From Halomonas sp. THAF5a (lineage in GTDB: Bacteria; Pseudomonadota; Gammaproteobacteria; Pseudomonadales; Halomonadaceae), in the NCBI RefSeq assembly GCF_009363755.1, contig NZ_CP045417.1:1178001-1242000 (forward strand): a stretch of 64,000 nucleotides of DNA, read 5' to 3'. How positions within the stretch are numbered: the first letter of the stretch is position 1; each line of letters opens with the position of its first letter. Of this stretch, positions 10,458 through 34,774 are shown piece by piece. A program made the translations under genes and the position numbers. The notes under the pieces are model-generated. The model was given only the letters and a program-made list of their open reading frames with translations, made no database searches and had not been told where the DNA came from.

Positions 10458-10518
10458 CGAATTTGGCTGCGGAAATGTTCCCTGAATAGCCCTGTAAGTT
10501 CAGAGAAGATATTTCCTG

Positions 10519-19165: not shown

Positions 19166-19291
19166 ATGCTGAGTCGGCCGCCGGTAGCTGTCGGGTCCTG
19201 GGTGATGGCTTGTCACCCGTCGAGTACGAACGGCGTTATACCCAGAGCCTGATGGGTGCCTAGAAGACCCGGGGCGATTCAGGTCTTCATG

Positions 19292-19933: not shown

Positions 19934-20338
19934 TCAGGCGGGGAGAATATAGGCGCCCTGGGCGATCGCGCAGGGCGCGCTTTCATTGTCATCCATCCAG
20001 ATCGACACGCTGCCGATCAGTGTCCTGCCGCCGCCCTTGTTGAGATCGGCCCGGGCCCGAATCCGTTGCCCAACCGCCGGCGTCAGGTAGCGAATCGCCA
20101 GGTCCGAGGTCAACGCCATGGGCTGCGGTGTGTCGCGCCCCGCAGAGGCCAGGAACCAGAGGGCGGCGTCCGCGGCGGCGAACAGGGCAGGACCGCACAC
20201 ATAGCCACCGGGACGCACATCGTCATGGCGGACCTCGACGGTGGCGATGGCGTGGCTCTCGTCGAGTCGCTCACAGGTGACCTTACAGCTTGGCCAGTGC
20301 TCGGCCAGCATGGCGTTGATATCGTTGGCGCTGATCAT
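19934..20338 (-). CDS. PaaI/YdiI-type hotdog thioesterase (intact copy)
   Basis: 134 residues with the hotdog-fold helix and strands: HDDVRPGGYVCGPALFAAADAALWFLA (the DxxGG-like active region of PaaI-type thioesterases is reduced to VRPGGYVCGP), then LTSDLAIRYLTPA and GRTLIGSVSIWMDD. Hydrolysis of an acyl-CoA is expected, substrate unknown. It lies upstream in position of a truncated dsbA. A deleted copy of this gene lies at 28161-28308, as part of the direct repeats bordering the haloacid cassette. Confidence 0.8.
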   Translation of the reverse strand: MISANDINAMLAEHWPSCKVTCERLDESHAIATVEVRHDDVRPGGYVCGPALFAAADAALWFLASAGRDTPQPMALTSDLAIRYLTPAVGQRIRARADLNKGGGRTLIGSVSIWMDDNESAPCAIAQGAYILPA

Positions 20339-20956
20339 GGGAAATGTCCTTATTCGATGGGGGAGGCCCGAGTCTGATCGAGTGGCTCACTCGGTGCGAG
20401 CGCGCTATCACCCAGCAAGCCTGGCTGTGCCTGGGGGCTTTTCGCGTGTCGGGGATTGAGGAGCTCCCTGCTCGAGGAGCCACTCTCGGCAGCATGCCTC
20501 TCTGCTCAATGAGCTTGATCGGTCTGCTCGGCGGCCACCTGCTTCAGCACTTCCTGGTAATTGTCCACGCCCTGGGCGCCAGTGACCAGATAGCGATGGT
20601 TGAACACCATGGCCGGCACGCCGCTGATGCCCTGGCGGCGCCAGTAGGCCTGACGCTCTCGCACGCTGTCCGCCCTGTCCCCGGCTTCCAGCATGGCCGT
20701 GACCGTCGCTTTGTCGTGACCGAGGCCAGTGGCAATGTCCGCCAGGACCTCAATGCGATGCAGGTCCCTGCGCTCGGTGAAGAAGGCGCTGAAGAGGGCC
20801 AGCTTCATGCGATGCCCCGCATCGTGGCCTTGCTGTTCGGCCCAGTCGATCAGCTGGTGGGCGCGAAAGGTGTTCACCATGCGCATATCGTCGGTGTAGT
20901 GGAAGGTGAAGCCCAGCTCGGCCCCCATGGCGGTGAGCTTTTCCCGGGCCTGGCGC
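20264..20956. repeat. Left direct repeat (thioesterase 5' end to dsbA), pairs with 28234-28926
   Basis: 693 bp aligning without gaps to 28234-28926 (constant offset 7970) with about 11 mismatches counted by eye, roughly 98% identity. It covers the first ~75 bp of the thioesterase gene, the intergenic region and most of dsbA. Homology stops abruptly at 20956, where insertion-sequence-like DNA begins. Together the two copies bracket the haloacid cassette in direct orientation. Confidence 0.93.
20506..20956 (-). pseudogene. dsbA-like gene, 5'-truncated copy
   Basis: Encodes the last ~150 residues of the DsbA-like protein that is complete at 28476-29147 (from REKLTAMGAELGF to the C-terminus). 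The N-terminal part with the CPWC active site is missing; the open frame continues upstream to 21045 through unrelated sequence, so any product would lack the redox centre. The break at 20956 abuts an IS-like terminus. Almost certainly nonfunctional. Confidence 0.88.
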
Positions 20957-21020
20957 CGATGATGACCCGATCCGAGCTTAGATAGCCTGTCAGGTGGTCC
21001 AAGGAATGGGGTCCACTTCA
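20957..21020 (-). mobile_element. Possible insertion-sequence terminus
   Basis: Read on the minus strand, the segment starts TGAAGTGGACCCC and continues with TTGGACCACCTGACAGG. This resembles the TG-starting terminal inverted repeats of IS3-family elements of the type TGAAGTGGACCCC...TGGACA. Only ~64 bp is present, ending exactly where the dsbA homology begins. It probably marks the lesion that truncated dsbA. Family assignment needs a database comparison. Confidence 0.45.
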
Positions 21021-21057
21021 CAGAACGGACCTGGAAATGAGTCACTCTCGTCAGTCC

Positions 21058-21981
21058 TCATGACGACATCAGTTGGGCACGAAACACTGCGATATTGGTC
21101 ACCAGACCAGGTAGCAGGTATTGGAACAGCCGAGTGACCTCGAGCACTTCCTCATGGCTGGCATCCTGGACTGCCGCTGCCGTGAGCTGCTGGGGTAGCA
21201 GCTGATTGGGGTTGGGAAGCTCGGCGACCAAGTCGAGGGCGGTCACGTGAATGTCCTGGGTGATCGCCCGATACGACTCGCTATCGATACGAGGGGCGAG
21301 GTCGTGCCAGGCGCGAGTGAAGTAGCCGGGCCATCGCGCCAGGGCGCGATAGTCCGTGTTGACGAAGGGCAGTCCGAGCGTCGTCCGGATCTGCCGGTAC
21401 AACGCCTTATGCTCACTGTTGCCGTGATGGGGTTCCATCAGGATGAGGCTTCCCGCCTTCGCCGGGGGCGCTGTCGAGGCGGGCGTCACCTCGGTCGCCG
21501 TGGAGAGTGGCAGGCCTTCCATCAAGGTTCGCGCTTGGCTGGCGATCAGCAGGTAGGGCATGTTGCCGTGGGAGAACACCTCGATGAGCCGGCGAATCTC
21601 CTCAAGCTCTCGATGCGAGTATCCTTCCTCGAGGAGGTCGGCGACGAGGGACCCGGGGGCCAGGTGGCTGGCATGGTGCTCTACCCGGGCGCGGAGTCGC
21701 TGACAGGCCTCGATGAATTGCCGCGACTCATAGAGAGGGCGCAGGCCCTGCCAGAGCGCGGCATAGAAGCGTGGATAGTGAGCCAACGCCATGGTGACGA
21801 CGCCCATCCAGGGCACCTGGAGTATGCGCTTGGTGTCTTCATAGGTGGCCCGCAATGGCCCATCCGCCTCTCTCTCTGCCACAGGGTGGATGGTGGGAAG
21901 CGGGTCGGGAAGTCGTCGCGGCAGCATCGCGGCCGCGCGGGTGGATCCCCTGGTCGTCATGTCGTTGGATGGCGTCTTCAT
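21058..21981 (-). CDS. dehI: 2-haloacid dehalogenase, DehI (group I) type
   Basis: 307 residues from the ATG at 21981, which overlaps the stop of the HAD dehalogenase (ATGA) and follows GAGGTG. It is recognisable as DehI: GPLRATYEDTKRILQVPWMG and SHGNMPYLLIASQA in the first half and TDYRALARWPGYFTRAWHDLAP in the second, with the internal pseudo-repeat of that fold. Asp210 in NTDYRALARWP matches the Asp that activates water in Pseudomonas putida PP3 DehI, and Trp58 sits in the conserved VPW motif. DehI enzymes hydrolyse both D- and L-2-haloacids to hydroxy acids. It is distal in a likely operon with the HAD dehalogenase and the flavoprotein. Confidence 0.88.
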   Translation of the reverse strand: MKTPSNDMTTRGSTRAAAMLPRRLPDPLPTIHPVAEREADGPLRATYEDTKRILQVPWMGVVTMALAHYPRFYAALWQGLRPLYESRQFIEACQRLRARVEHHASHLAPGSLVADLLEEGYSHRELEEIRRLIEVFSHGNMPYLLIASQARTLMEGLPLSTATEVTPASTAPPAKAGSLILMEPHHGNSEHKALYRQIRTTLGLPFVNTDYRALARWPGYFTRAWHDLAPRIDSESYRAITQDIHVTALDLVAELPNPNQLLPQQLTAAAVQDASHEEVLEVTRLFQYLLPGLVTNIAVFRAQLMSS

Positions 21982-22706
21982 GCGGCACCTCGGTGACCAA
22001 TCGTTAGCGCGTCGAGTAACTGCGCGTGGCTTTCTGCCACGATATCGGGCGCGGTGGGCAGTGGCGGGGGCGTGTCCGGGCCCCACTCCTCTGGGCGATG
22101 AAGATACGCCGTCTTGAAGCCGACGGCCCGTGCCGCGTCCAGATCGTATTCGTGGCAGGCCACCATGCAGCACTGCTCGGGTTGCAGCTGCAGGTACTCG
22201 GCGACCGTCAGATAGGCCTGGGGCAGGAGCTTGTACTTGCCGAGGCCCTCACAGGAGAACACCGCATCCCAATTGAGGCGATTGTGCTTCGCCGTATCCA
22301 GGATCATGCGATAGCTGAGGATGGAAAACGAGGCGACCATGAAGTTGCCACGCAGTGCCTCCAGCATCTCGTCGAAGCCCGTCCAGCATTCGAACGCATG
22401 CGGGGCATCGTAGGCGATGTGGTGTCGATCCGCGTCGCTGAAGCACCCAAGACCGGCCTCGTCGAGCAAGGCATCCAGCACCTCGCGGTGCACCCCATCC
22501 ATGTTCTGGCTCGGCGGATGCTGCTCTCCGGCATTCAGCATCCTCTGCATGGAGCGGCGGCGTAGCTCGTTGGTCAGGGACGACCAGTCGCGCTCGACGC
22601 CGTGGCGCATCCCCACTCGATGAAACGCCCCTTTGAAGCCTCGGTGCCAATCGAGGACCGTGCCTCCCGTATCGAAGGTAAGGGCTTGGACGTCCGCTAG
22701 GCTCAT
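21978..22706 (-). CDS. Haloacid dehalogenase type II (HAD superfamily)
   Basis: 242 residues. HAD motif I is LTFDTGGTVLDW with the nucleophile Asp12 and Thr16, motif II ASFSILS, motif III KYKLLPQAY with Lys, and motif IV MVACHEYDLDAARAVGFKTAY with the acidic Asp. This follows L-2-haloacid dehalogenases, which open the C-halogen bond via an aspartyl ester. Deviations from the classical enzymes are DTGG instead of DxFGT and Ile instead of Asn after the motif II Ser, so specificity may differ. Overlaps the DehI gene by 4 bp and lies 82 bp after the flavoprotein. Confidence 0.85.
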   Translation of the reverse strand: MSLADVQALTFDTGGTVLDWHRGFKGAFHRVGMRHGVERDWSSLTNELRRRSMQRMLNAGEQHPPSQNMDGVHREVLDALLDEAGLGCFSDADRHHIAYDAPHAFECWTGFDEMLEALRGNFMVASFSILSYRMILDTAKHNRLNWDAVFSCEGLGKYKLLPQAYLTVAEYLQLQPEQCCMVACHEYDLDAARAVGFKTAYLHRPEEWGPDTPPPLPTAPDIVAESHAQLLDALTIGHRGAA

Positions 22707-22758
22707 GACGTCTCCTTGCGTGTCGTGGTGGAAGGGAGATCTTCAAGATCTGGCTGAA

Positions 22759-22780
22759 GGGCCTGAGCGCTGTCAGGCCC
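22759..22780 (-). promoter_or_regulatory. Intercistronic hairpin between flavoprotein and HAD dehalogenase
   Basis: GGGCCTGA/TCAGGCCC stem with a GCGCTG loop in the 82-bp gap. No U tract, so readthrough into the two dehalogenase genes is expected; it may act in mRNA processing or stability. Confidence 0.5.
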
Positions 22781-22788
22781 TGGACGGC

Positions 22789-24477
22789 TCAGGCTTGGCT
22801 GGCCTCCCTCTCGTGGACGGAGCCTGCCGGCGAGTCGCTGTACTGGCTGAGAATGACGTCGTCCAACACCAGCCCGTCGTCCCGGGACAGCCTGACCAGC
22901 TGCTTCTTCAGCCAGCCGCGGCTCGCCTCTGGGTAGTCGGAGCGGGTATGAGTGCCGCGGGTCTCCGTGCGCCTCAGCATACTTTGCCGCATGGCCTCGG
23001 ACAGCATGAGCACCCGCTTCACGCGCAGGATGGCCGCGTATTCATCGAGGCTCTGCCAGCCAAAGCCATCGACCTCGCGCTGCAGCGCCGCGATGTCGTC
23101 GCGCGCTGCCTGCAGCAGCGCTGCCGACCGGAAGGGTCCCAGGGCGTGCTGGTTGATGCGGCGAATGCGATCAAGCGCCTCGTCCACCCTCGCCGGCGTA
23201 CCGGCGCTTGTCGTGACCGGTTCATCCTCCCGCGCGAGGCTGGCGAGCGTTCTGGGACGAAGGTGGTGAGCGGCGTGGCGTCCGCTGATGCGTCCGTAGG
23301 TGATGGCCTCCACCAGGGCGGTGCCGCCATGGCGGTTGGCACCGTGGATCCCGCCGGCCACCTCGCCGCAGGCGTAGATACCGGGCAGTCGCGTCTGGCC
23401 GTTGATATCCACCTGAATGCCGCCGATGGTGTAGTGCGAGGAGGGCGCGACCCCGATGGCACGCTGACGGAAGTCGGGGATGTATTTCGAGAGGAAGGTG
23501 GCGGTGAGCGAGTCGGGGGCCCATTCCTCTTCGCGAGTGTGGCGAAAGTCGACGTAGACCTTCTGCCCTCTGACGATTTCGGACTGCATGATGAAGCTCA
23601 ACTGGTCCCAGTTGTGCAGGGCGCCGAGGGTGGTGGAACCGCCGATGTGCTTCTCGATCAGGTCTTCGCCATCCGAGTTGATAAGCACCGCGGTTTCCGG
23701 GTAGTCCGGGTACATGAAAATGGCCGGCACCCCCTCCTCGCACACGGCCAGCGGATAGAACTGGATGAACTCCATGTCGACCAGGCTGGCGCCCGCCTCC
23801 AGCGCCATGGCCTGGCCGTCACCGAGCAGGTTCCGAGGCGTATCGGTGAAGTCGTAGACCCCCTGCATGCCGCCAGTGGCGATGATGACTGCGCGGGCGG
23901 CAATCTTGACCGCCTTGCCATCGATGATGGCCCAGGCGCTGGGGCCTTCTGCCGACAGACTCAGGGCGCTGCCTCGCAAGCGCTGGACATCCGTCTTCCT
24001 GATGGCCTTGCGGAGCTGCGAGAAGAGCGCGGTGCCGTGGGTGGAGGAAAATTCCATCATCAGCCCGGTCATATCGTTGGCACCGTCCGCGCCGTAATCC
24101 TCATTCAGCATGTCCTTGCCACGGCGCCCGGTGGACCGTTTCACGCGATAGCCCCGCGGGGCCTTGTCTACGGGGATCTCGTAGCTCTCGATGGTCTCGG
24201 CCATTTCCAGCGGCCCTTCACGCACGAGTCGCTCCAGCAGGGGCATGTCACACAGGCCCTTGCCGGTGGTATGGGCCATGGCCTCGAGGATGTCATCCTG
24301 AGAAATGTCCTCATGGGCCGCGTAGGTCACGAATCCGGTCGAGATCGCCGTCGAGGAGGCCTGGCCGCTGTACAGCAGGGTGACCTGCGCACCCTGTTCA
24401 TGGGCGGCGAGAGCGGCGGTAAGGCCTGCCGCGCCTTCTCCGATGACCAGCACGTCGGTTTCGATAACGTCTTGCAT
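22789..24477 (-). CDS. FAD-dependent fumarate reductase/succinate dehydrogenase-like flavoprotein; candidate 2-haloacrylate hydratase
   Basis: 562 residues. The start at 24477 follows GAGG and lies downstream of a -24/-12 promoter; a longer frame to 24540 would start inside that promoter. The N-terminal dinucleotide fold is TDVLVIGEGAAGLTAALAA. The SDH/FRD-type FAD signatures are present (VIIATGG, GDGQAMALEAGASLVDMEFIQFYP, SHYTIGGIQVD, CGEVAGGIHGANRHGG, ALVEAITYGR). No iron-sulfur or membrane anchor partner is adjacent, so it is not a respiratory complex. A flavoenzyme of this superfamily in Pseudomonas sp. YL hydrates 2-haloacrylate, and the two dehalogenases downstream make that activity a reasonable candidate; a reductase or oxidase role is the alternative. 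Confidence 0.8.
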   Translation of the reverse strand: MQDVIETDVLVIGEGAAGLTAALAAHEQGAQVTLLYSGQASSTAISTGFVTYAAHEDISQDDILEAMAHTTGKGLCDMPLLERLVREGPLEMAETIESYEIPVDKAPRGYRVKRSTGRRGKDMLNEDYGADGANDMTGLMMEFSSTHGTALFSQLRKAIRKTDVQRLRGSALSLSAEGPSAWAIIDGKAVKIAARAVIIATGGMQGVYDFTDTPRNLLGDGQAMALEAGASLVDMEFIQFYPLAVCEEGVPAIFMYPDYPETAVLINSDGEDLIEKHIGGSTTLGALHNWDQLSFIMQSEIVRGQKVYVDFRHTREEEWAPDSLTATFLSKYIPDFRQRAIGVAPSSHYTIGGIQVDINGQTRLPGIYACGEVAGGIHGANRHGGTALVEAITYGRISGRHAAHHLRPRTLASLAREDEPVTTSAGTPARVDEALDRIRRINQHALGPFRSAALLQAARDDIAALQREVDGFGWQSLDEYAAILRVKRVLMLSEAMRQSMLRRTETRGTHTRSDYPEASRGWLKKQLVRLSRDDGLVLDDVILSQYSDSPAGSVHEREASQA

Positions 24478-24528
24478 GGCGTAGTCCTCGCTGAGGGGGT
24501 TGTCGATGTTGTTGCCTCGATTAGACAT

Positions 24529-24545
24529 AGCAAGTGGCATGCCAA
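24529..24545 (-). promoter_or_regulatory. Sigma-54 (-24/-12) promoter of the flavoprotein-dehalogenase unit
   Basis: On the minus strand the sequence is TTGGCATGCCACTTGCT, matching TGGCACG-N4-TTGCW with correct GG to GC spacing. The predicted start is about 24518, giving a leader of ~40 nt before the ATG at 24477. A sigma-54 activator is encoded in the same cassette. Confidence 0.85.
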
Positions 24546-24614
24546 TACTGATATTCGATTAAAAACAATAAGTTGATGGTGAGAGTGGCGGTGCTCCACA
24601 CCCTGCCGGGTAGG

Positions 24615-24639
24615 AAATGACCTCGCGATGGGGTCATTT
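24615..24639. promoter_or_regulatory. Inverted repeat, candidate upstream activator site
   Basis: AAATGACC at 24615-24622 and GGTCATTT at 24632-24639 form a perfect 8-bp dyad 70-95 bp upstream of the -24/-12 promoter, the usual place for an enhancer-binding protein. It contains GGGGTC, also present in the dyad upstream of the permease promoter. Confidence 0.6.
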
Positions 24640-24672
24640 ATGGACCGGTAAGCCGTGGCCAGGGTGATCAAC

Positions 24673-24700
24673 AAAAAACCGCATGGCCAGGCCATGCGGT
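24673..24700 (-). terminator. Intrinsic terminator after the permease gene
   Basis: Minus-strand hairpin from the near-perfect palindrome ACCGCATGGCC-A-GGCCATGCGGT (24678-24700), followed on that strand by six Ts (24673-24678). It would end the permease transcript, explaining why the flavoprotein unit has its own promoter. Confidence 0.85.
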
Positions 24701-24725
24701 TCGAAGGACTTGCGCCGATCAGGCG

Positions 24726-26120
24726 TCATGTATTGTCGAGGGAGGACTCCTTCAGCGGCATCGCCATATCGCCGCATTTCTCTGCACTCGGTTTGCGACG
24801 GCGTTCCAGCAGCAGGTAGAGCACCACTCCGGCAATCAGGCCATAGGCGGCGCCATGTACCGCGAGCACGATGCCCATCGTGCCGGCAACGCCCATGGCG
24901 GTCGAGCTCTTGATCTGCTCGACCCCCACCGAGATGCACAGGTAGCCGGTGATCAGCAGCGTCAGGGAAAGTGCAATCGGCAGCACCGGCTTGACGATGG
25001 TGACCAGTGGGAGCACGAACAGCGCAAGCAGCGCCACGATCCAGAAAACGCCGGCGCCGGAGTAGATGGTGTCCATGGCGGAGCGTCCATAGCGGTAGCG
25101 TTCGGCGATGGTAGCCATACCTCCGGTAAACAGGGGGCCCGCCAGGCCCGGGTAAGGAGCGAACAGCGAGTGCATCAGATTCCGAATGGCGGTGACTAGG
25201 TGGACACGGTCGACGTTGTCCTCGATGACTTCATCCTGACGCAGGTGATCGGCGCGCTTGAGCAGCGTCCGGCCGACGATGATATCGCCGAAGGCGATGA
25301 TGTAGGCGATGACGGCCGTGGGAATGGCCATCCACAGCATTTCCAGACTAGGCCAGCCGACGGTGAACGGCAGATAGCCCCAGATCTCGGAAAAGTCGGG
25401 CAAGGCGAGGCCAAGTTCGATGTCGGGCAAGGGATACTCGCCGGCGCTCCAGCCGATGCCCATCGCCACGAGGGCTCCGGGTACCATGCCATAGCTGGCG
25501 ATGGTCTTGGCCCAGCGATGTTCCTCCACCCAGTCGCGGAAGGACAGTGAGAACAGCACATAGGCGGTCACGATGCTGCCCAGTATCAGCGACAGTGGCG
25601 TCTCGGCGAGGCGGCCGCCGGCGCTGATCTCGCCGCTGATGGCGGCAATGCCGGCCCCCAGGAGGATACCGCCCTTGATGGAGTCGGGAATCACCTCCAC
25701 CAGCTTGCTGCCCAGACGCGTGATGCCCAGGATGAAGAAGATCAGTGTCACGATGAGCTGGAGTCCGACCAGGGCGCGTATGGCCTCGGGGCCGGGTTCA
25801 AAGTTCTGCAGGTAGAGAATGACGACGGGCACCGCCGGCGTGATCCACCCCGGTACGTAGGGGACGCCGAGGAGGTTCGGCAGCAGAAAGCCGATGCCAC
25901 AGACTGTGACGTAGGCAAGCGCCACCTCGTAGGGCAAGCCCAGGTACGTCTCGAGCAGGGGAATGGCGGCCATGGCCACCACGAACATGATCAGGGCCTG
26001 GATCGTTTCGGGCCATTCCCAGCGATAGTGGATGAAGGGCAGGCGAATCTTGAAGGGGCCCGCTGGCCAGTAGGGGTGCTCCTCACCGTGTGTGCGTTGG
26101 TAGATAGGCATCGTTGTCAC
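24726..26120 (-). CDS. Multi-pass permease, NCS2/SulP-like (xanthine/uracil permease superfamily)
   Basis: 464 residues with about 12-14 hydrophobic segments. The PDSIKGGILLGAGIAAISGE segment and the TVGWPSLEMLWMAIPTAVIAYIIAFGDIIVGRTLL stretch resemble nucleobase/ascorbate (NCS2) transporters. The substrate is not readable; its place in the haloacid cassette, behind a sigma-54 promoter and opposite the activator gene, suggests import of a haloacid or related acid. Known haloacid permeases are MFS proteins, so this would be a different solution. It has its own terminator downstream. Confidence 0.75.
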   Translation of the reverse strand: MTTMPIYQRTHGEEHPYWPAGPFKIRLPFIHYRWEWPETIQALIMFVVAMAAIPLLETYLGLPYEVALAYVTVCGIGFLLPNLLGVPYVPGWITPAVPVVILYLQNFEPGPEAIRALVGLQLIVTLIFFILGITRLGSKLVEVIPDSIKGGILLGAGIAAISGEISAGGRLAETPLSLILGSIVTAYVLFSLSFRDWVEEHRWAKTIASYGMVPGALVAMGIGWSAGEYPLPDIELGLALPDFSEIWGYLPFTVGWPSLEMLWMAIPTAVIAYIIAFGDIIVGRTLLKRADHLRQDEVIEDNVDRVHLVTAIRNLMHSLFAPYPGLAGPLFTGGMATIAERYRYGRSAMDTIYSGAGVFWIVALLALFVLPLVTIVKPVLPIALSLTLLITGYLCISVGVEQIKSSTAMGVAGTMGIVLAVHGAAYGLIAGVVLYLLLERRRKPSAEKCGDMAMPLKESSLDNT

Positions 26121-26220
26121 CTTGTCTTGTCGTTATTTTCCCATGGGGAGAGGGTTCACGGTCGGAGGAACGCTTCTCGACTGCTGGCGTGCGCCCCTTT
26201 CGCCGTCCGTCCAATGGAAG

Positions 26221-26237
26221 AGCAAGAACGATGCCAA
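26221..26237 (-). promoter_or_regulatory. Sigma-54 (-24/-12) promoter of the permease gene
   Basis: Minus-strand sequence TTGGCATCGTTCTTGCT fits TGGCACG-N4-TTGCW with exact spacing. The predicted start near 26210 gives a ~90-nt leader to the permease ATG at 26120. The adjacent upstream DNA (26238-26275) is strongly AT-rich, suitable for IHF or DNA bending. Confidence 0.85.
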
Positions 26238-26320
26238 CTTATAAAAAATATAAAAATCAAGATATTACATTTTTCCTTGGCACTGGGGTGTGTTGGCTGG
26301 GGCCAGTTTCGACCTTCATA

Positions 26321-26338
26321 GGGGTCTATTTTGACCCC
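26321..26338. promoter_or_regulatory. Inverted repeat, candidate activator binding site
   Basis: GGGGTC-TATTTT-GACCCC is a perfect dyad ~85-100 bp upstream of the permease -24/-12 promoter and ~60 bp before the activator gene. A further GACC lies just left and a GGGGT just right, making a cluster of similar half sites. Confidence 0.6.
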
Positions 26339-26395
26339 GCCTCCGGGGTATGCTGAGGCCAGGTTCTCTCACCAGCCGCGGGGAGCGACAGAGGC

Positions 26396-28105
26396 ATGAA
26401 CAGCATGGCAGTCAGCGAAACGACCATTCTTGACCGGTTACCACATGGGTACATGCAGATCGAGGGTGGCGCCGTTACATATATGAACCGTGCCCTACGC
26501 AGCGTCTTTGGAGACGTTTACTCCGAGGTGTCAATACTGTTGTCCCGTTATCCTGAGCTAGCCTTTCTCGATGAGGCGGAGACGGGGACAAGTCTCAGCC
26601 GATGGGTTGATATCGATGGAGTACTGTTCAATGTCGACGTCTACGCGGACGAGGCGTCCAAAGTCATCATCTTTCTGCCTGACCATTACCTGACCGGTAT
26701 CGACCCCGACCTCCAGGAGTTACGCCAGTCCTACAATGATTTCGTCGAGATCTTTCAGAACTGCTTCGATGGCATCTATGTCGCCGATGGCGAAGGAAAG
26801 ACGCTGTGGATGAATGATGGCTTCGAACGCTGTTATGGGCTGAGTGCGCGTAACTTCATCGGTCGCAATGCTTCCGAGCTGGAACGTCAGGGATATGTCC
26901 GGCCCCTGATTACCTGGAAGGTAATCACCACCCGGCAGCGAACAACGGCCATGCAGACGACGAAGTCCGGCAAGCGTGTGCTGGCGACAGGTATTCCCTT
27001 GATGGGCAAGGATGGCAAGGTACGCAAGGTCATCATCAACTCGAGAGACATCACCGAACTGTTCGAACTGAAGGAACGTCTCGACAGCGCCGAAAAGGTT
27101 ATCGAACGCTATGAGAGCGAATTGACGCGGCTTAGAAAGGAAGAGGGAAAGGAAGGAGATCTGGTCTGGCGTAGCGATCGGATGCAGCAGGTGGTCGACA
27201 TGGTGATTCGCGTGGCACGTTTCGACACCACTATCCTGATCACGGGTGAGTCTGGTGTGGGCAAGGAGGTGGTGGCGGGCCTGGTGCATCGTAACAGCAG
27301 CCGTCGCGATGGTCCCCTACTTGAAATCAATTGTGGGGCCATTCCGGGAGAGCTGCTGGAGTCGGAGCTGTTCGGGTACGAGGAAGGTGCCTTCACCGGA
27401 TCGAGAAAGACCGGCAAGAAAGGACTGCTGGAACTGGCCGATGGGGGAAGTCTTTTTCTTGATGAGATTGGCGAGATGCCGATGGATCTTCAGGTCAAGA
27501 TGTTGCGGGTACTCCAGGATCACACTTTCACCCGGGTGGGTGGCACCAAGAGCATTCATGCCGACTTTCGCATTATCGCTGCGACCAACCGAAATCTCGC
27601 GGACAGGGTCAAGGAGGGGCTTTTTCGCGAAGACCTGTTCTACCGTTTGAGTGTGGTCCCCGTGGAGGTTCCACCGCTTCGCGACAGGCCAGAGGACATT
27701 ATCGGGCTGACCTTCCATTTTCTCGAGTATTTCAACGACAAGTACGGACTGAACAGACGGTTCTCGCCCGAGGCGATGGAGAGATTAGTATCTCACGGCT
27801 GGCCGGGCAACGTGCGAGAACTGCGTAATCTGGTCGAGCGTGTGATGGTGGTCAGCACGTCCGATCAGATTGCAGCCGACGATATTCCCCTGGCACAGGA
27901 AGAACCTGCGACACAGGTGGGAGAGGTGCCTGCTGACCTGGTGGGGTCGCTCAGCGCTGATCGGCTAAAGCAGACCGTCGGGCAGTTCGAGGCGGACATT
28001 CTCGACGAAGCAGTGGCGCACTTCGGCAGCATCAGAAAGGTGGCGGCGGCCACTGGGATCAGCGAGTCCACCATCAAGCGCAAGTTGAAACACTCGCGCT
28101 CTTGA
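26396..28105 (+). CDS. Sigma-54-dependent transcriptional activator with PAS sensor
   Basis: 569 residues. Residues ~110-220 form a PAS domain (FVEIFQNCFDGIYVADGEGKTLWMN). A short coiled segment leads to the AAA+ domain: Walker A GESGVGKE at 284-291, the sigma-54 contact loop GYEEGAFTGS at 327-336, and Walker B GGSLFLDEIGE at 350-360. A Fis-type helix-turn-helix closes the protein (IRKVAAATGISESTIKRKLK). It is transcribed divergently from the permease/flavoprotein/dehalogenase genes, both of whose promoters are of the sigma-54 type. P. putida PP3 dehI is likewise governed by a sigma-54 activator (DehR), which supports the assignment. The PAS domain probably senses the haloacid. Confidence 0.9.
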   Translation: MNSMAVSETTILDRLPHGYMQIEGGAVTYMNRALRSVFGDVYSEVSILLSRYPELAFLDEAETGTSLSRWVDIDGVLFNVDVYADEASKVIIFLPDHYLTGIDPDLQELRQSYNDFVEIFQNCFDGIYVADGEGKTLWMNDGFERCYGLSARNFIGRNASELERQGYVRPLITWKVITTRQRTTAMQTTKSGKRVLATGIPLMGKDGKVRKVIINSRDITELFELKERLDSAEKVIERYESELTRLRKEEGKEGDLVWRSDRMQQVVDMVIRVARFDTTILITGESGVGKEVVAGLVHRNSSRRDGPLLEINCGAIPGELLESELFGYEEGAFTGSRKTGKKGLLELADGGSLFLDEIGEMPMDLQVKMLRVLQDHTFTRVGGTKSIHADFRIIAATNRNLADRVKEGLFREDLFYRLSVVPVEVPPLRDRPEDIIGLTFHFLEYFNDKYGLNRRFSPEAMERLVSHGWPGNVRELRNLVERVMVVSTSDQIAADDIPLAQEEPATQVGEVPADLVGSLSADRLKQTVGQFEADILDEAVAHFGSIRKVAAATGISESTIKRKLKHSRS

Positions 28106-28160
28106 GTCGGGTCACGTGCCGCCCGGGTCCGAATGACGAGTAGGTGTCGGGCTCGGAGAA

Positions 28161-28308
28161 TCAGGCGGGGAGGATATAGACGCCCTGAGCGATCGCACAG
28201 GATTGGCTTTCATAGTCCATCCATCCAGATGGCGAGTCGCTCACAGGTGAACGGACAGCTTGGCCAGTGCTCGGCCAGCATGGCGTTGATATCGTTGGCG
28301 CTGATCAT
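28161..28308 (-). pseudogene. Thioesterase gene with internal deletion
   Basis: 28161-28230 matches the 3' end of the thioesterase gene at 19934-20002 (about 80% by eye). It is joined directly to 28234-28308, which matches its 5' end at 20264-20338. About 260 bp of the middle is missing, so no functional enzyme can be made. Part of the right-hand border of the haloacid cassette. The 3' segment is less conserved than the rest, so it may come from a different lineage. Confidence 0.88.
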
Positions 28309-28926
28309 GGGAAATGTCCTTATTCGATGGGGGAGGCCCGAGTCTGATCGAGTGGCTCACTCGGTGCGAGCGCGCTATCACCCAGCAAGCCTGGCTGTGC
28401 CTGGGGGCTTTTCGCGTGTCCGGGATTGAGGAGCTCCCTGCTCGAGGAGCCACTCTCGGCAGCATGCCTCTCTGCTCAATGAGCTTGATCGGTCTGCTCG
28501 GCGGCCACCTGCTTCAGCACTTCCTGGTAATTGTCCACGCCCTGGGCGCCAGTGACCAGGTAGCGATGGTTGAACACCATGGCCGGCACGCCGCTGATGC
28601 CCTGGCGGCGCCAGTAGGCCTGACGCTCTCGCACGCTGTCCGCCCTGTCCCCGGCTTCCAGCATGGCCGTGACCGTCGCTTTGTCGTGGCCGAGGCCAGC
28701 GGCAATGTCTGCCAGGACCTCGATGCGATGCAGGTCCCGGCGCTCGGTGAAGAAGGCGCTGAAGAGGGCCAGCTTCATGCGATGCCCCGCATCGTGGCCT
28801 TGCTGTTCGGCCCAGTCGATCAGCTGGTGGGCGCGAAAGGTGTTCACCATGCGCATATCGTCGGTGTAGTGGAAGGTGAAGCCCAGCTCGGCCCCCATGG
28901 CGGTGAGTTTTTCCCGGGCCTGGCGC
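28234..28926. repeat. Right direct repeat, pairs with 20264-20956
   Basis: Gap-free counterpart of 20264-20956 at offset 7970 with about 11 mismatches. In this copy dsbA continues beyond 28926 to its complete 5' end, whereas the left copy is broken at the equivalent base. Confidence 0.93.
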
Positions 28927-29147
28927 GAGCCCTCGGGGGTGGTGCCGTACTTGGCCGCGAGGTGCTCACGCAGGTTTTCGCCTTCGGCGGCCATCTGGGG
29001 ATTGAGTTCGAACGGGTGCCAGCGCACCTCGAGCGGGATGTCGCTCAGGCGTGACGCCTCGGCCAGCTGGTGGTAGCCGATGACGCACCAGGGGCAGACG
29101 ACGTCCGAGACGATATCCACGTTGATGGTCGGGGATGGGAGTGTCAT
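28476..29147 (-). CDS. DsbA family oxidoreductase (FrnE-like), intact copy
   Basis: 223 residues from the ATG at 29147 (GGAG upstream); an in-frame ATG further upstream at 29189 is less likely. The active site is C18-P-W-C21 in VDIVSDVVCPWCVIGYHQL and the cis-Pro loop is GISGVPAMVF. No signal peptide, so cytoplasmic. It has the same architecture as the gene at 8600-9247 but is much more GC-rich. It is the intact partner of the truncated copy at 20506-20956. Follows the KefB-like gene by 67 bp on the same strand. Confidence 0.9.
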   Translation of the reverse strand: MTLPSPTINVDIVSDVVCPWCVIGYHQLAEASRLSDIPLEVRWHPFELNPQMAAEGENLREHLAAKYGTTPEGSRQAREKLTAMGAELGFTFHYTDDMRMVNTFRAHQLIDWAEQQGHDAGHRMKLALFSAFFTERRDLHRIEVLADIAAGLGHDKATVTAMLEAGDRADSVRERQAYWRRQGISGVPAMVFNHRYLVTGAQGVDNYQEVLKQVAAEQTDQAH

Positions 29148-29213
29148 GAGGATGCTCCGATGGAGTGGTTGATAATCAAGCCGATACAACTGCCTGAAAG
29201 GAGTTCCAGGAGG

Positions 29214-31121
29214 TCATTGTGTGGCATCGCCATCTGGCGGTGGAGTCCAGCCGCGTTCAGACCGAGAGAGGGCATCGTCTTTCCGATCGCTTTGCATGAC
29301 CTGCGCCAGCATGCCGTGCTGGGCCCGCATCGCATCGATGTATCGACCGGAGACTCCTTCCTCTGCCCAGGCTGCGCGTAGTTCATCCAGGCTCTGGAGG
29401 TCGTGTTGACGAAAGCGATTGGTCGCCTTGCGAGCAGCGAACGGGTGTTCTCCCAGGACTGTCAGCGCCTCTCCGCCAAGGTGCAGGGCGCTTTCGAATG
29501 TCTCTCGTTCGACATGATGGGCGCCGGCCTTCTCAAGCTCATAAACATGGTGGCGATCGTGGGCTCGGGCCAGGACCGTGACATGGGGCCATCGGTTAGC
29601 CACCTGCTCGACCAGGCGAGTCTGTTTGTCGCGGTCGTCCAACGCTGCAATCAGCAGGGACGCCGACGGGAGTCCTGCCGACTCCAACAGATCAGGGCGC
29701 GTGGCGTCGCCGTAGTAGACCCGGAAACCAATCCTGGCGAGGTGTTCGATGGTTTCCGGGTCATGGTCGAGAATGGTGACTTCATGACCTCGTGAGGTAA
29801 GCAACCGTGCCACGATCTGACCGAAGCGTCCCATGCCGGCCACCACGATGGACTCGCGCTGGTCGATCTTAGGGCTTTCACCAGTGCTGCTTTGTTGGGC
29901 ACGGGGAGCCAACACTTTCTCGAACAGGATAAACAGCAGCGGCGTCATCAGCATGGTCAGGGCCACGGCCAGGGTCATGATGCGGGTGATCTCGTCGTCA
30001 AGAACTCCGCTGCTGGTGGCGAAGGCAAACAATACGAACGCGAATTCCCCGGCCTGGGCCAGCCCCAGGGCAAACAGCCAGCGGTTGGCCCCGCGCAGTC
30101 CGAACAGGGAGGCGAGGGCAAACAGGATGCTGCCCTTGAGCAGGAGCAGTCCAAGGGCGATCGACACCACGGCGGTGGCCTCGGACATCAGCAGGCCGAC
30201 ATCGATGGTGGCGCCCACGGTGATGAAGAACAGGCCCAGCAACAGTCCCTTGAAGGGCTCCACATCACTTTCCAACTCATGGCGGTACTCGCTGTCCGAA
30301 AGTACGACACCGGCGAGGAAGGTTCCGAGTGCCGGTGATAGGCCCACCAGCGACATGAGCAGGGCGATGCCGATCACCAGCAGCAGGGCCGCCGCGGTGA
30401 ATATCTCGCGCAGGCCACTCTGGGCGATGAAGCGCAGCAGGGGGCGCATCAGAAGACGCCCTGCCAGAATGATCCCGCCAATCACGGCGAGAATGACGAC
30501 CACCTGTAGCCAGTCCGGCAGTGTCGAGAAGAGGTGTGCTAACTGCCCGTGGGTGCTGGCTTCGGTATCTCCATGTGCCGCCTGGCTGCCCTCATGGCCC
30601 TGACTCGCTCCGGTCACCGCCAGCAGTGGCATCAAGGCGAGCATGGGAATGACGGCAATGTCCTGAGTGAGCAGTACCGAAAAAGCACTTTGACCGCCGT
30701 GAGTCGTCATCAGCCCTTTCTCGTGAAGGGTCTGCAGCACGATGGCCGTAGAGGACAGCGCCAGGATCATGCCGAGCGCCAAGGCACCCTGCCAGGCAAG
30801 CCCGAAGCACCAGGCCACGCCGCCTATCGCCACCGTGCTGAGCACGACCTGGAGCCCCCCGAGTCCTGCCAACTGGTAGCGCATGGCCCACAACTGGGAG
30901 GGTTGAAGTTCCAATCCGACCAGAAACAGCATCATCACCACACCAAATTCGGCGAAGTGCTGCACCTCGGTGGCTTCCTGCCCCACGACCCCCAAGAGCG
31001 GACCGATGATCACGCCGGCGATCAAATAGCCGAGTACCGATCCTAGCCCCAGACGGTTGGCCAGTGGCACGGCGATGACGGCCGCCGCCAGATAGACGAA
31101 TCCCGCTGCCAGTAATTCCAT
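29214..31121 (-). CDS. KefB/KefC-type glutathione-regulated K+/H+ antiporter
   Basis: 635 residues. An N-terminal CPA2 antiporter domain of ~12 helices (VLGYLIAGVIIGPLLG, LLTQDIAVIPMLAL, FITVGATIDVG) is followed by a cytoplasmic Rossmann (TrkA-N) domain starting IVVAGMGRFGQIVARLL. The HALO of an SDSEYRHELESDVEPFKGLLLGLFF segment is typical of Kef proteins. Kef systems release K+ and acidify the cytoplasm when electrophile-glutathione adducts form. Its ATG overlaps the stop of the KefG-like gene (TGATG), a standard Kef arrangement. Confidence 0.9.
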   Translation of the reverse strand: MELLAAGFVYLAAAVIAVPLANRLGLGSVLGYLIAGVIIGPLLGVVGQEATEVQHFAEFGVVMMLFLVGLELQPSQLWAMRYQLAGLGGLQVVLSTVAIGGVAWCFGLAWQGALALGMILALSSTAIVLQTLHEKGLMTTHGGQSAFSVLLTQDIAVIPMLALMPLLAVTGASQGHEGSQAAHGDTEASTHGQLAHLFSTLPDWLQVVVILAVIGGIILAGRLLMRPLLRFIAQSGLREIFTAAALLLVIGIALLMSLVGLSPALGTFLAGVVLSDSEYRHELESDVEPFKGLLLGLFFITVGATIDVGLLMSEATAVVSIALGLLLLKGSILFALASLFGLRGANRWLFALGLAQAGEFAFVLFAFATSSGVLDDEITRIMTLAVALTMLMTPLLFILFEKVLAPRAQQSSTGESPKIDQRESIVVAGMGRFGQIVARLLTSRGHEVTILDHDPETIEHLARIGFRVYYGDATRPDLLESAGLPSASLLIAALDDRDKQTRLVEQVANRWPHVTVLARAHDRHHVYELEKAGAHHVERETFESALHLGGEALTVLGEHPFAARKATNRFRQHDLQSLDELRAAWAEEGVSGRYIDAMRAQHGMLAQVMQSDRKDDALSRSERGWTPPPDGDATQ

Positions 31122-31795
31122 CAGTTTCGTCCGCGCGGTGAGTGAAAAGAAGGAGATGATGCCAAGGACGCGGCCGATGACGTCTCATGGCTCGTGTCGA
31201 AAGGCGTGTCGCTGAGGTAGTCATTAAAGAGCGCGTGACGGCTCAGCTGAGCGGCATCCAGAGGGGTGTGATGAAGCAGGTCGAGCAGGGCACGGTAGTC
31301 TTGGCAGTGCTCATCGAGACGCCCATCTGCCTCCGCCCTGCCGGCATCGAACAGCACCAGCGGGGGCAGCCACTCAACTTGGCAAAGCTGCCATGTTGCC
31401 TTGAAAGGCCGTAGGAGTTCGGGCACCGTGACGCCCTTGTAGCCCTCCTGAGTGTAGGCATGCCGAGCGGCACCACAGCTGATCACATGCATCACCTGCT
31501 TGCCCTTGAGCGCTTGTCCCTGAGGGCCATAGGCGAAGCCGTATTCCAGCACCAGGTCTATCCACTCCTTGAGCAGTGCTGGGCAGGAGTACCAATAGAA
31601 TGGATGCTGAAAGACGATAACATCATGTTCCACGAGACGCCGCTGTTCGGCGTCTATGTCGATGTCCATGCTAGGGTAGGTGGCATAGAGATCGACGCTG
31701 GTCACATGTCCGGCGTTGCTTGCCTGACGAAAGAGCGTGGCATTGACCTCTGAGCGATCAGGTCGTGGATGAGCGAGGTAGACGAGTACCTTCAT
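31121..31795 (-). CDS. KefG/KefF-like NAD(P)H oxidoreductase, antiporter ancillary subunit
   Basis: 224 residues of the flavodoxin-like quinone reductase fold: MKVLVYLAHPRPDRSEVNATLF, VFQHPFYWYSCPALLKEWIDLV and the GFAYGPQGQALKGKQ region. The C-terminal ~30 residues are low-complexity and Ser/Thr-rich and may be dispensable. Kef ancillary subunits bind FMN and are required for full antiporter activity. Coupled to the downstream antiporter gene by a one-base overlap. Confidence 0.88.
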   Translation of the reverse strand: MKVLVYLAHPRPDRSEVNATLFRQASNAGHVTSVDLYATYPSMDIDIDAEQRRLVEHDVIVFQHPFYWYSCPALLKEWIDLVLEYGFAYGPQGQALKGKQVMHVISCGAARHAYTQEGYKGVTVPELLRPFKATWQLCQVEWLPPLVLFDAGRAEADGRLDEHCQDYRALLDLLHHTPLDAAQLSRHALFNDYLSDTPFDTSHETSSAASLASSPSFHSPRGRN

Positions 31796-31930
31796 GGGAC
31801 TCTCTCTTTATCGTTGATCTCCACGCACTTGTGGAGCGCCAAGCGAGTGGCCTCACACTCCCGGTGAGGCCACTCACGACTATCCTGACGGGGTCACGGA
31901 CCAGCATTCTCGTGAAGCCGTGATGGGCTC

Positions 31931-32647
31931 TCACTTCCTGACATCGGTGGCGAAACGAGCGGCATTCTCCCTGAGGAACTCGCTTTCGTCGGCGTCACCC
32001 CAGAACGCGGGCTGTGCCTTCGGGATGGTCAAGGCCTTCTGGATCTGGGGGCGCGCATCGAGCCGCTCGAACCAGGCCTTCAGGTGGTCGAGACCCTCGA
32101 TCGACACCTTGGCCCAGACGTAGGCGCGGGCCCAGGGGTAGGTCGCCATGTCGGCGATGGTGTACTGATCCCCCGCCAGCCAATCGCGGCCCTCCAGGCG
32201 GGTGTTCAGGACCTCCAGCAGGCGACGGGATTCATCCACGTAGCGCTTGATAGAGAAGGGTTCCTCCTGGCCGTTGGGGGCGGCGATGCGCTGGAAGTAC
32301 ATGGCCTGGCCCATCATTGGGCCGATGCCGCCCATCTGGAACATCAGCCACTGCAGCGTTTCGCTGCGGGCCTTGGCCTCTCTGGGCAGGAAGCGGTCGT
32401 ACTTCTCGGCCAGGTACCAGAGGATGGCGCCGCTCTCGAACACGGCGAAGTCGTCGTTGCCCCGGTCGACGATGGTGGGAATGCGCCCGTTGGGATTGAG
32501 CTTGAGATAGTCGGGCGCCTTCTGCTCCTTCTTGCCGAAGTCGATGAAGGTCAGCTCGTAGGGCACCTCCGCTTCCTCGAGAAAGATGACCGGCTTGTAG
32601 CCGTTCATGGTGGCGGCGGTGTACAGGTGAATATCCGGCTGTGACAT
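31931..32647 (-). CDS. Glutathione S-transferase family protein
   Basis: 238 residues; start at 32647 chosen over two close in-frame ATGs (32656, 32662) because GAGGA lies at a normal distance. The thioredoxin-like N-terminal domain has NGRIPTIVD (cis-Pro glutathione site) and ESGAILWYLAEKY. The helical C-terminal domain has WLAGDQYTIADMATYPWA. Resembles the YfcG/YghU-type cytosolic enzymes. Its place with Kef, MdaB and SDR genes fits conjugation of electrophiles with glutathione. Confidence 0.88.
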   Translation of the reverse strand: MSQPDIHLYTAATMNGYKPVIFLEEAEVPYELTFIDFGKKEQKAPDYLKLNPNGRIPTIVDRGNDDFAVFESGAILWYLAEKYDRFLPREAKARSETLQWLMFQMGGIGPMMGQAMYFQRIAAPNGQEEPFSIKRYVDESRRLLEVLNTRLEGRDWLAGDQYTIADMATYPWARAYVWAKVSIEGLDHLKAWFERLDARPQIQKALTIPKAQPAFWGDADESEFLRENAARFATDVRK

Positions 32648-32685
32648 GGGGAACATCCTCATGGGGGTGACGCGATGAAGGGTGT

Positions 32686-32729
32686 TGCGCGTCGGGCCCG
32701 GTACCCTCTTGCATCGAGCCCGACGCGCA
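32686..32729 (-). promoter_or_regulatory. Intra-operon 12-bp inverted repeat
   Basis: TGCGCGTCGGGC at 32686-32697 and GCCCGACGCGCA at 32718-32729 form a perfect 12-bp stem with a 20-nt loop between the SDR and GST genes. No U tract. Candidate site for attenuation or RNA processing inside the operon. Confidence 0.6.
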
Positions 32730-32750
32730 TTGCCTGCTGCCTGTGGACGG

Positions 32751-33551
32751 TCACATCTGACGGTCCCAGAGGCTCTCCTGGTAGCGCTTCACGTCCTCCT
32801 CGAATCGTGCGGGATGCACGTTGCGGAAGGCATGCTCGTCCAGCGGGATGAGGCGTACCATCTCATCGATCATGGAGGAGGGGTCGAGCTGCAGATCGTC
32901 CCCGGCGAACAGCTGCTGGGTCTCGCGGATCGGCGCCTCGGGGGTGAAGTGTGTCGCTGGGTCGTACCACTGGTCGAGGGTGTCGTACATGCGGTCGTTG
33001 AAGCCGGTGCGGAAGGGGCCCGGGTTGATGGTGGCGACCTTCACGCCCAGCGGTGCCAGCTCTTCGTGGAGCAGCTGGGCAATGGCCTCCAGGGCATGCT
33101 TGGACGCCACATAGGGCGCGAGGTAGGGGAAGGTGGTGAACCCGGCGATGGACGATACCAGCACGATCTTGCCCTGGCCGCGATCGGCGAAGGCCTTGGC
33201 GTAAGGCTGCACGAACTCCAGCGTCGAGAAGACGTTCGTCTCGAAGACCTTGCGCACGCGCGCCACGGGAATCTCGGCGATGGGGCCGGTCTCGCCGATC
33301 GCCGCGTTAGCCACCACGACATCCACCTCGGCGCCGTAGCGCGCAAAGACGCTGTCGCGATCCTGGGCATCGGTGATGTCGAGTTTCTCGACCTCCAGGT
33401 CAACGCCCTGCTGCTGCGCCTTTTCCCTCAGGGCCGACACCTGGGGCCAGATTTCCACTGTGGCAATCACCCGGTGCCCTTGTTGCGCCAGTGCCAGTGC
33501 CGCCCCTTCTGCCAGGCCGCTGCCGGCCCCGGTCATCAGAATGGTTTTCAT
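32751..33551 (-). CDS. Short-chain dehydrogenase/reductase
   Basis: 266 residues of the classical SDR pattern: cofactor motif MTGAGSGLAEG, NAAIGETGP (NNAG-like), catalytic Ser in LVSSIAGF and YxxxK in YVASK, then NPGPFRT. NAD(P)H-dependent; substrate unknown. The next cupin gene lies 26 bp away and the GST 103 bp away on the same strand, so it is part of the electrophile-stress operon. Confidence 0.87.
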   Translation of the reverse strand: MKTILMTGAGSGLAEGAALALAQQGHRVIATVEIWPQVSALREKAQQQGVDLEVEKLDITDAQDRDSVFARYGAEVDVVVANAAIGETGPIAEIPVARVRKVFETNVFSTLEFVQPYAKAFADRGQGKIVLVSSIAGFTTFPYLAPYVASKHALEAIAQLLHEELAPLGVKVATINPGPFRTGFNDRMYDTLDQWYDPATHFTPEAPIRETQQLFAGDDLQLDPSSMIDEMVRLIPLDEHAFRNVHPARFEEDVKRYQESLWDRQM

Positions 33552-33577
33552 CGTCTCTCTCCTCGAGATAAGTGGGG

Positions 33578-33925
33578 TTACGCCAGGTCGTCGCGATCCA
33601 GGCGCTCGAAAATGATGGCCTCGACGGGCGTCGCGCCGACGTTGGTCACCTGGTGCGCCCAGGCCTCGTTGTGCATGACGTCGCCTGCCACCACGTCACG
33701 CTCCACGACATCGCCGCTTTCCAGTGCGATGCGCAGGCGCCCGGCGGAGAGGAAGTAGACGATCTCCTCCGGATGGCGGTGAGGCGCATCGGCGGCGCCG
33801 GGGGCCATGGTCATGTGAACCAGCCGTGTCTCGCCGGTGTTGATGAGCTCGCGATAGAACTCCGGGGAGGCCTGGTCGGCCAGCGGTACCGGGCGCCCAG
33901 CGTCGGGCCATTGAGGCGTTGTCAT
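33578..33925 (-). CDS. Cupin domain protein
   Basis: 115 residues from the ATG at 33925, preceded by AGGAG; an upstream in-frame ATG (33955) lies inside the previous gene's stop region. The single cupin shows MTMAPGAADAPHRHPEEIVYFLSAGRLRIAL (metal-binding His-x-His ... Glu) and GDVMHNEAWAHQVTNVG (second motif with His). Possibly a small dioxygenase or isomerase; no specific substrate is suggested. Confidence 0.82.
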   Translation of the reverse strand: MTTPQWPDAGRPVPLADQASPEFYRELINTGETRLVHMTMAPGAADAPHRHPEEIVYFLSAGRLRIALESGDVVERDVVAGDVMHNEAWAHQVTNVGATPVEAIIFERLDRDDLA

Positions 33926-33954
33926 GGGGGATTCTCCTGAGTGTGACGGATGCA

Positions 33955-34542: not shown

Positions 34543-34612
34543 GAAATCCTCCGCCACGATGGGCAACGAGTAGTGGATCAACAAGCTCTGCAGGCGTTAA
34601 GATGGAGCGAGT

Positions 34613-34647
34613 GGTAACCAAAAACAACTAGTATACTTTTGGTAACC
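34613..34647. promoter_or_regulatory. Dyad in the mdaB-HxlR intergenic region, probable HxlR operator
   Basis: GGTAACCAAAA at 34613-34623 is mirrored by TTTTGGTAACC at 34637-34647 (9 of 11 positions pair), around an AT-rich CTAGTATAC centre. HxlR-type regulators bind dyads of this size between divergent genes. The location between the mdaB and regulator starts supports autoregulation and control of the stress operon. Confidence 0.65.
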
Positions 34648-34774
34648 TGGCTCTTCGGAGGATCGACCAGGCCCGCCCCGGGATGGCACCTTCCGGGGAG
34701 CACTCGGGAATCGATGAGCGGTTTCAGGCCCAGAACCCCGTTGGCGCTGGGCAGACACGACAGGAGGTGTGCGA

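Follow-up and report, generated by a model that had tools for sequence, protein, structure and literature searches.

The window analyzed in this work, a 64,000-nucleotide stretch of Halomonas sp. THAF5a (positions 1,178,001 to 1,242,000 of a single-contig genome of 3,806,748 bp), carries a cassette of predicted haloacid genes between two direct repeats. From left to right, the locus consists of an intact thioesterase gene (T), a truncated dsbA gene (dsbA′), the end of an IS3-family insertion sequence (IS), dehI, a gene for an HAD-type hydrolase, a flavin adenine dinucleotide (FAD) flavoprotein gene, a PurT-like permease gene and a sigma-54 activator gene, which are followed by a decayed thioesterase remnant (T′), an intact dsbA, KefC-like and KefF/G-like genes, and a glutathione S-transferase (GST)–short-chain dehydrogenase/reductase (SDR)–flavodoxin block. 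The dehI, HAD-type, flavoprotein and permease genes all lie on the minus strand, and the sigma-54 activator gene is divergent from them. We tentatively read this locus as an insertion-duplication with one homologous joint and one IS-linked illegitimate joint, an explanation that we consider possible but short of probable.

BLASTN comparison placed the left direct repeat at 20263-20956 and the right one at 28233-28926, both on the plus strand and 694 bp long, with an offset of 7970 bp, no gaps and 683 identical positions out of 694 (98.4%, 11 mismatches), and the 694-bp sequence matched the whole genome at these two places only. These data bore out a preliminary description of the window, which had claimed gap-free direct repeats of ~98% identity with an intact thioesterase and a truncated dsbA on the left, and an internally deleted thioesterase and an intact dsbA on the right; the right-hand thioesterase was found to miss ~260 bp and to be frameshifted as well. 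Its further claim that a crossover between the repeats would return one intact thioesterase-dsbA locus was correct on paper, as joining the flanks at the repeat by script produced a thioesterase frame of 150 codons and a dsbA frame of 245 codons, counted from stop to stop. Thus, the insert is bracketed by direct repeats of a homologous arm and, on paper only, repeat recombination restores an intact empty site, both of which are expected of a single-crossover integrant.

At the left joint, dsbA′ (20506-20956, minus strand) retains the C-terminal part of dsbA without the N-terminal part: it covers positions 58-190 only of the PF01323 profile and is 98% identical to residues 87-237 of the intact copy (28476-29189, minus strand; a dsbA-family oxidoreductase gene, PF01323, E = 7.1e-34). 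The open reading frame (ORF) of dsbA′, 20506-21045 on the minus strand, continues into foreign sequence. The stretch joined to dsbA′ comprises the terminal 64 bp of an IS3-family element (right end, 20957-21020, plus strand), the remainder of which is missing. Alignment of the right dsbA with IS copies (L087 and L092) revealed that dsbA and the IS3 element have a 10-bp stretch in common at the joint (20947-20956, plus strand; GGCCTG[G/A]CGC, 9/10 bases identical). Positions 20947-21023 matched a site in the own genome at 99% (G000:C1:1677486-1677562) and a second site at 89%; an intact own-genome copy (L092) contains orfA (95 amino acids) and orfB (283 amino acids) and, as read by eye, has terminal inverted repeats with CAG on both flanks, a triplet that by eye also follows the IS end of the window. 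A relative of this IS end sits on a Halomonas plasmid, and the end of dehI lies 37 bp past it. These results indicated that the dsbA′ break is an IS3-linked joint of the microhomology type, unlike a plain circle closure, and it resembles an illegitimate joint or a deletion abutting an IS. A clean closure of a circle inside dsbA was ruled out, since dsbA′ ends at the IS3 joint.

A second IS3-type remnant, of a transposase, lies at 19202-19282, to the left of T; it is 90% identical to a sequence on a plasmid of Halomonas sp. HAL1 and derives from a different IS than the 20957-21020 end. Within this genome, the two remnants have matches to separate IS copies or no match at all. A composite transposon, in which two copies of one IS flank the segment, was rejected, because only one border has an IS end (20957-21020) and the 19202-19282 remnant, of another IS, lies outside the repeats.

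At the right joint, the two thioesterase copies could be compared directly. The intact T gene (19934-20338, minus strand) encodes a 4HBT/hotdog thioesterase of 134 amino acids (PF03061, E = 3.7e-8), and its only orthologue in other genomes of the family, in genome G117, is 83% identical. Alignment to T showed that T′ (28106-28308, minus strand) is composed of a 3′ flank, a frameshifted tail, a deletion and the start region: the start region (28233-28308) and the C-terminal tail (28156-28230, 85% identical) are retained, and the ~260 bp between them are lost. Homology of the right copy extends, at much lower identity than in the repeat, through the tail and the 3′ flank to about 28106, adjoining the stop of the sigma-54 gene (28105). 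The tail has 9 mismatches in 69 positions relative to T plus a 1-bp insertion, and polarization by G117 assigned seven of the nine as derived in T′ and one as derived in T, with one ambiguous. In the 3′ flank, 23 of 54 positions (43%) of a gap-free alignment were mismatched, and 22 of 40 positions matched in register versus 4 to 12 at six shifted offsets. At the three repeat mismatches in 20281-20284, T′ holds the G117 state, and the intact T has the derived state.

The best changepoint along the copies was at 20284/20285 (28254/28255 in the right copy), with 12 differences in 91 positions on the thioesterase side (13%) versus 8 in 672 on the dsbA side (1.2%), a split reached in 0 of 5000 permutations; this analysis was made without the 54 columns (23 mismatches) of the T′ 3′ flank and without the 1-bp insertion, and either addition would make the switch stronger. 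The changepoint and the 43% difference in the T′ 3′ flank argue that the thioesterase parts separated long ago, while the dsbA parts are recent copies, and we infer that position 20284 is the boundary of a homologous exchange or conversion. Among the seven differences between dsbA and dsbA′, five were derived in dsbA′ and one in dsbA, and one was ambiguous, with G033, G117 and a Roseovarius gene as outgroups. In these small numbers, the excess in dsbA′ would be as expected of a copy broken at birth.

Within the cassette, dehI (21058-21981, minus strand; PF10778) is predicted to encode a DehI-family 2-haloacid dehalogenase of 307 amino acids starting at MKTPSNDM. The open frame extends to 22173, and the 307-residue form, which overlaps the HAD gene by 4 bp, matches a Halomonas denitrificans protein at 89%. 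Over the catalytic domain, the product matched the characterized (R)-2-haloacid dehalogenase 5gzy (E = 6.6e-47, residues 88-368) and DehI itself (3bjx, E = 2.2e-16). The adjoining gene for an HAD-superfamily hydrolase (21978-22706, minus strand) resembles haloacid dehalogenase type II (TIGR01428, E = 1.7e-28, under the curated cut-off), and its product matched the cis-epoxysuccinic hydrolase 8wmt (E = 9.8e-30) as well as haloacid dehalogenases. These are followed by the FAD flavoprotein gene of the SdhA/FrdA/NadB superfamily (22789-24540, minus strand; PF00890, E = 2.2e-46), for which all 472 records found on plasmids were below 60% identity, and by the PurT-like permease gene (24726-26120, minus strand; 7tak, E = 1e-191; Pfam matches sub-threshold only). 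Permease relatives of 66-76% protein identity were present at all 11 family loci checked, with the flavoprotein absent from the ~1.5-kb flanks of each. A promoter scan yielded a weak −24/−12-like site upstream of the permease gene (26221-26236, minus strand); chance alone would give 2.1 sites of this kind in the window, and three were counted. The activator gene (26396-28105, plus strand; PF00158, E = 1.1e-67) encodes a PAS–sigma-54 activator–helix-turn-helix regulator.

The distribution of these genes was examined in 275 genomes of the family including this one (274 others; the genus accounts for 90, including this one), with matches retained at E values of 1e-15 or better for the thioesterase and 1e-40 or better for dsbA, and with up to 7 candidates per genome scored for DehI and up to 10 for dsbA. 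Besides the thioesterase orthologue in G117, 46 further genomes had a match at 34-38%. Orthologues of dsbA were found in two genomes (77-78%, G117 and G033), the next best matches being 55% and 53%. In G117, the thioesterase gene directly adjoins GST, without an intervening dsbA, kef or haloacid gene, and dsbA is located ~26.5 kb away; in G033, dsbA adjoins an SDR gene, and a thioesterase orthologue was not found. The empty site that the preliminary description proposed to seek in relatives was consequently not found, since no orthologous thioesterase-dsbA neighborhood was observed elsewhere: the thioesterase was present in one and dsbA in two of the 274 other genomes, never as an adjacent pair, in a set not known to include strains of the same species. 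DehI gave weak matches in only 2 of the 274 (best, 34% and 32%), and none in G117 or in 96 other relatives. This rarity of the haloacid genes in the family makes a mobile history plausible. A genome of another genus of the family (G180) contains, within 7 kb (L123, G180:C3:360000-373000), a sigma-54 activator gene (51%), an HAD-type gene and a dehI-like stretch (33%) with in-frame stops, possibly a decayed haloacid cluster.

The closest named relatives of dehI and of the HAD gene, those of H. denitrificans (89% and 95% protein identity), lie together on one 412,959-bp contig, and this contig was not represented among the best 120 dsbA hits. On pTHAF9_b, a mobilizable plasmid of Roseovarius sp. 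THAF9, relatives of HAD (55%, a match covering two annotated reading frames), dsbA (60%), GST (65%), the flavodoxin-fold gene (66%) and dehI (47%) occur within ~5.0 kb; this plasmid differs from the window in gene order and has no match for the sigma-54 gene, the SdhA-type flavoprotein or a KefC of the window type. A Neomegalonema metagenome-assembled genome (MAG) likewise has dsbA, GST, the flavodoxin-fold gene and dehI together. Thus, dsbA is not necessarily an unrelated gene of the host at which the insertion happened to occur. Among six dehI loci compared outside the family (L034-L038 and L084; the plasmid locus L085 was left out), four (L035-L038) were without dsbA, GST or flavodoxin partners, one of them, L036, being only 3.6 kb long. 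DehI relatives were detected on two mobilizable alphaproteobacterial plasmids (47% over 88% of the query and 51% over 29%), the second, partial one adjoining IS genes, and the cassette may accordingly be of plasmid origin. At the DNA level, near-mode searches gave only the Roseovarius dsbA piece (81%) among 72,556 plasmid records, with no record carrying both cassette and arm, and no match to the region among 50,697 phage records; neither dsbA nor dehI relatives were found in viral contigs.

The insertion-duplication reading would explain both joints in the following way. At the right joint, a homologous exchange in the thioesterase start region, at about 20284 (28254 in the right copy), would have linked the old decayed T′, beside the sigma-54 and haloacid genes, to local thioesterase-start/dsbA sequence. 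At the left joint, the IS3-family end downstream of dehI would have been joined illegitimately to the middle of the second dsbA copy through the near-match of ~10 bp. As this joint in dsbA is situated past the point of the thioesterase exchange, the ~0.67 kb between the two joints would be duplicated. Directly seen are the two repeats, the IS3 terminus, the near-match at the joint and the switch in divergence. The reading is favored by the changepoint at 20284, the old T′ flank and an IS3 terminus at the dsbA′ joint that is 99% identical to that of a resident intact IS, and also by its likeness to the model of transforming DNA that pairs with two chromatids (see below). Both joints may have arisen in one event, with the haloacid side, rather than the thioesterase-dsbA′ side, as the candidate incoming DNA, and the vehicle may have been transformation with sister-chromatid exchange or a replication-associated unequal exchange. 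Several observations weigh against this reading. Neither of the two parental arrangements turned up in any genome. The mismatches in the repeats are clustered, 5 of the 11 falling inside 51 bp (P = 0.03) and 3 inside 4 bp (P = 0.006), which fits gene conversion between older copies and leaves room for it. The IS insertion and deletion could also post-date the duplication, in which case the left joint would be a later scar. Furthermore, only one of the five dsbA′-derived changes was non-synonymous, and given the observed mutation types the probability of one or fewer is 0.13, so an early loss of dsbA′ was not demonstrated.

The preliminary description had interpreted the locus as a Campbell-type integration and had taken the reciprocal gene damage as the exact product of such an event. 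The latter point was not supported, as a tandem duplication of any origin can reach the same state provided that each gene retains one functional copy; reciprocal gene damage beside direct repeats is thus no proof of circle integration. A simple Campbell integration is itself only partly supported, and as the main rival we consider it somewhat unlikely: a circle bearing the haloacid genes and a damaged T′-dsbA′ would have recombined once with an intact locus, and later gene conversion would have evened most of the 0.7-kb arm. Its topology fits, with a geometry that allows RecA-type excision to restore both genes on paper, and the haloacid genes are rare; the higher-divergence patches between near-identical tracts (20281-20284, 20719-20769 and the tail) could be leftovers of conversion; and the dsbA relatives beside dehI on the mobilizable Roseovarius plasmid would make it natural for a mobile segment of haloacid genes to bring along a dsbA, a setting to which the partial DehI relative beside IS genes on the second alphaproteobacterial plasmid adds. 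However, a plain Campbell event predicts a single donor-host divergence level over the whole arm, while two levels (13% versus 1.2%) were observed, demanding additional gene conversion, which could mask such uniformity, or a mosaic donor. The lack of an empty site in the 274 other genomes, the end of dsbA′ at a joint with an IS resident in the own genome, the restriction of near-mode plasmid DNA matches to the 81% dsbA piece with no near-mode phage match, and the absence of the H. denitrificans contig from the best 120 dsbA hits speak against it as well. The same switch in divergence makes a simple old in-place tandem duplication of thioesterase-dsbA, with the cassette inserted afterwards and each gene losing one of its copies, very improbable: selection to keep a single copy of each gene would lead to reciprocal loss, but such a duplication would by itself give uniform divergence rather than 1.2% in one part and at least 13% in the other, and none of the searched family genomes has the duplication without the cassette.

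Another explanation, which we consider unlikely, reverses the order of events, with the haloacid operon, the sigma-54 gene, the decayed thioesterase and dsbA-kef-GST as a resident electrophile-detoxification cluster, beside whose dehI the left thioesterase-dsbA′ piece was delivered late by an IS-linked rearrangement or recombination. The Neomegalonema MAG, in which dehI, dsbA, GST and the flavodoxin-fold gene are neighbors, and the Roseovarius plasmid, which adds an HAD relative, are consistent with such an old neighborhood, as is the IS3-type sequence on both sides of the left piece (19202-19282 and 20957-21020). Against these stand the failure of the two remnants to match one and the same IS copy of the genome, the four of six outside dehI loci without these partners (one a 3.6-kb locus), the H. 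denitrificans dehI/HAD contig without dsbA among the best 120 hits, and G117, where the thioesterase lies directly beside GST and DehI has no match. An assembly artifact is barely credible: nothing besides the repeat itself points to it, while the copies differ at 11 sites and carry different damage, and the genome is a single 3.8-Mb contig with completeness rated 100%.

To the right of the repeat lie genes for a KefC-like glutathione-gated K+ efflux protein (29214-31121, minus strand; NF002924, E = 3e-213) and a KefF/KefG-like oxidoreductase (31121-31795, minus strand; NF003430, E = 2.2e-57), both under cut-off. The adjoining block of GST, SDR, flavodoxin-fold oxidoreductase, IclR and major facilitator superfamily (MFS) genes (31919-37727) occurs elsewhere without the cassette, with identities of 97.4% in G069 of the same genus, 93% in G145 of another genus, and 91% and 84% in G117. 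The first two values argue that parts of the region move on their own, and the pattern suggests, from identity levels, that this block was recently transferred. In G145 (L082), counterparts of 5526-7563 (96%), 8341-8491 (80%) and 9314-10574 (90%) directly adjoin the 31930-37673 block; the second dsbA-family gene of the window (8609-9223), 99.5% identical in protein to a G069 gene (L118), is missing from the G145 version, and the module order is reshuffled between the genera. Most of 37.7-59.0 kb is absent in G117, as its matches to 37674 and to 59048-59989 of the window lie within ~1.2 kb. The window contains no tRNA gene, and no scanned ORF reached the cut-off for an integrase or transposase, as would be sought in an integrase-type island; the ORFs were scanned in part, and att sites were not sought. 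Elsewhere in the window, 12591-15071 is one frame of 826 amino acids with two stretches matching coenzyme A-transferase family III, and 38236-39156 holds 2.7 tandem copies of a 338-bp unit that has no plasmid match and whose consensus, by eye, seems to code for a short protein that begins like a signal peptide. Another direct-repeat pair in the window, 50080-50879 and 58142-58940 (97% over 800 bp, ~8.06 kb apart), consists of two DkgB-like aldo-keto reductase genes around TetR, DJ-1/PfpI, Gfo/Idh and MFS genes.

Homology-facilitated illegitimate recombination is known from Acinetobacter. The locus described here, if read as an insertion-duplication, adds an instance to an established class of events, and its two joints can both still be read. 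In the transformation of Streptococcus pneumoniae, one study describes merodiploids in which donor DNA bridges sister chromatids and unequal exchange leaves a duplication (PMC3784515); in that case homology underlies both pairings and ~100-900 kb are duplicated, whereas here one joint is illegitimate and the repeat is 0.7 kb. Among haloacid systems, the DEH element of Pseudomonas sp. (putida) PP3 likewise has a dehI-family gene accompanied by a sigma-54-dependent activator in mobile surroundings, but an ISPpu12 copy stands on either side of it, the two being nearly identical (PMC12060670), in contrast to the single IS3-family end on one side and the thioesterase/dsbA repeats found here. The same paper lists dehII, a degenerate dehI, the dehP permease gene and the dehRII sigma-54 activator gene in the dehII cluster of Pseudomonas sp. 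PP3 (PMC12060670). Both that cluster and the THAF5a cassette thus contain a dehalogenase gene, a dehI-family gene, a permease gene and a sigma-54 activator gene, a likeness of gene content, since among the PP3 proteins the sequence comparison covered DehI (3bjx) only; unlike the PP3 cluster, the cassette has an open dehI frame, an added FAD flavoprotein gene and a position between direct repeats. The part of a review that was available (PMC6100074) contained nothing on DEH, and the accessible portions of the literature yielded nothing relevant on haloacid genes or their transfer in Halomonas, or on competence in this genus.

A broader proposal, which we regard as quite doubtful, is that the island grows by repeated insertion-duplication, each capture of incoming catabolic genes relying on homology within a shared gene at one end and on an illegitimate, IS-linked joint at the other; it would leave direct repeats of ~0.7-0.8 kb, ~8 kb apart, and between them a segment still open to excision and amplification. 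The pair at 50080-50879/58142-58940 would then mark another capture. For the haloacid locus itself, the 694-bp repeats could serve RecA as substrates for deletion of the cassette, which would bring back one intact thioesterase and dsbA, or for its amplification. The locus offers a readable case of a catabolic gene set becoming fixed in a chromosome, with one joint apparently homologous and the other illegitimate, and the leftover repeats predict that the haloacid genes may be lost or amplified by ordinary recombination.

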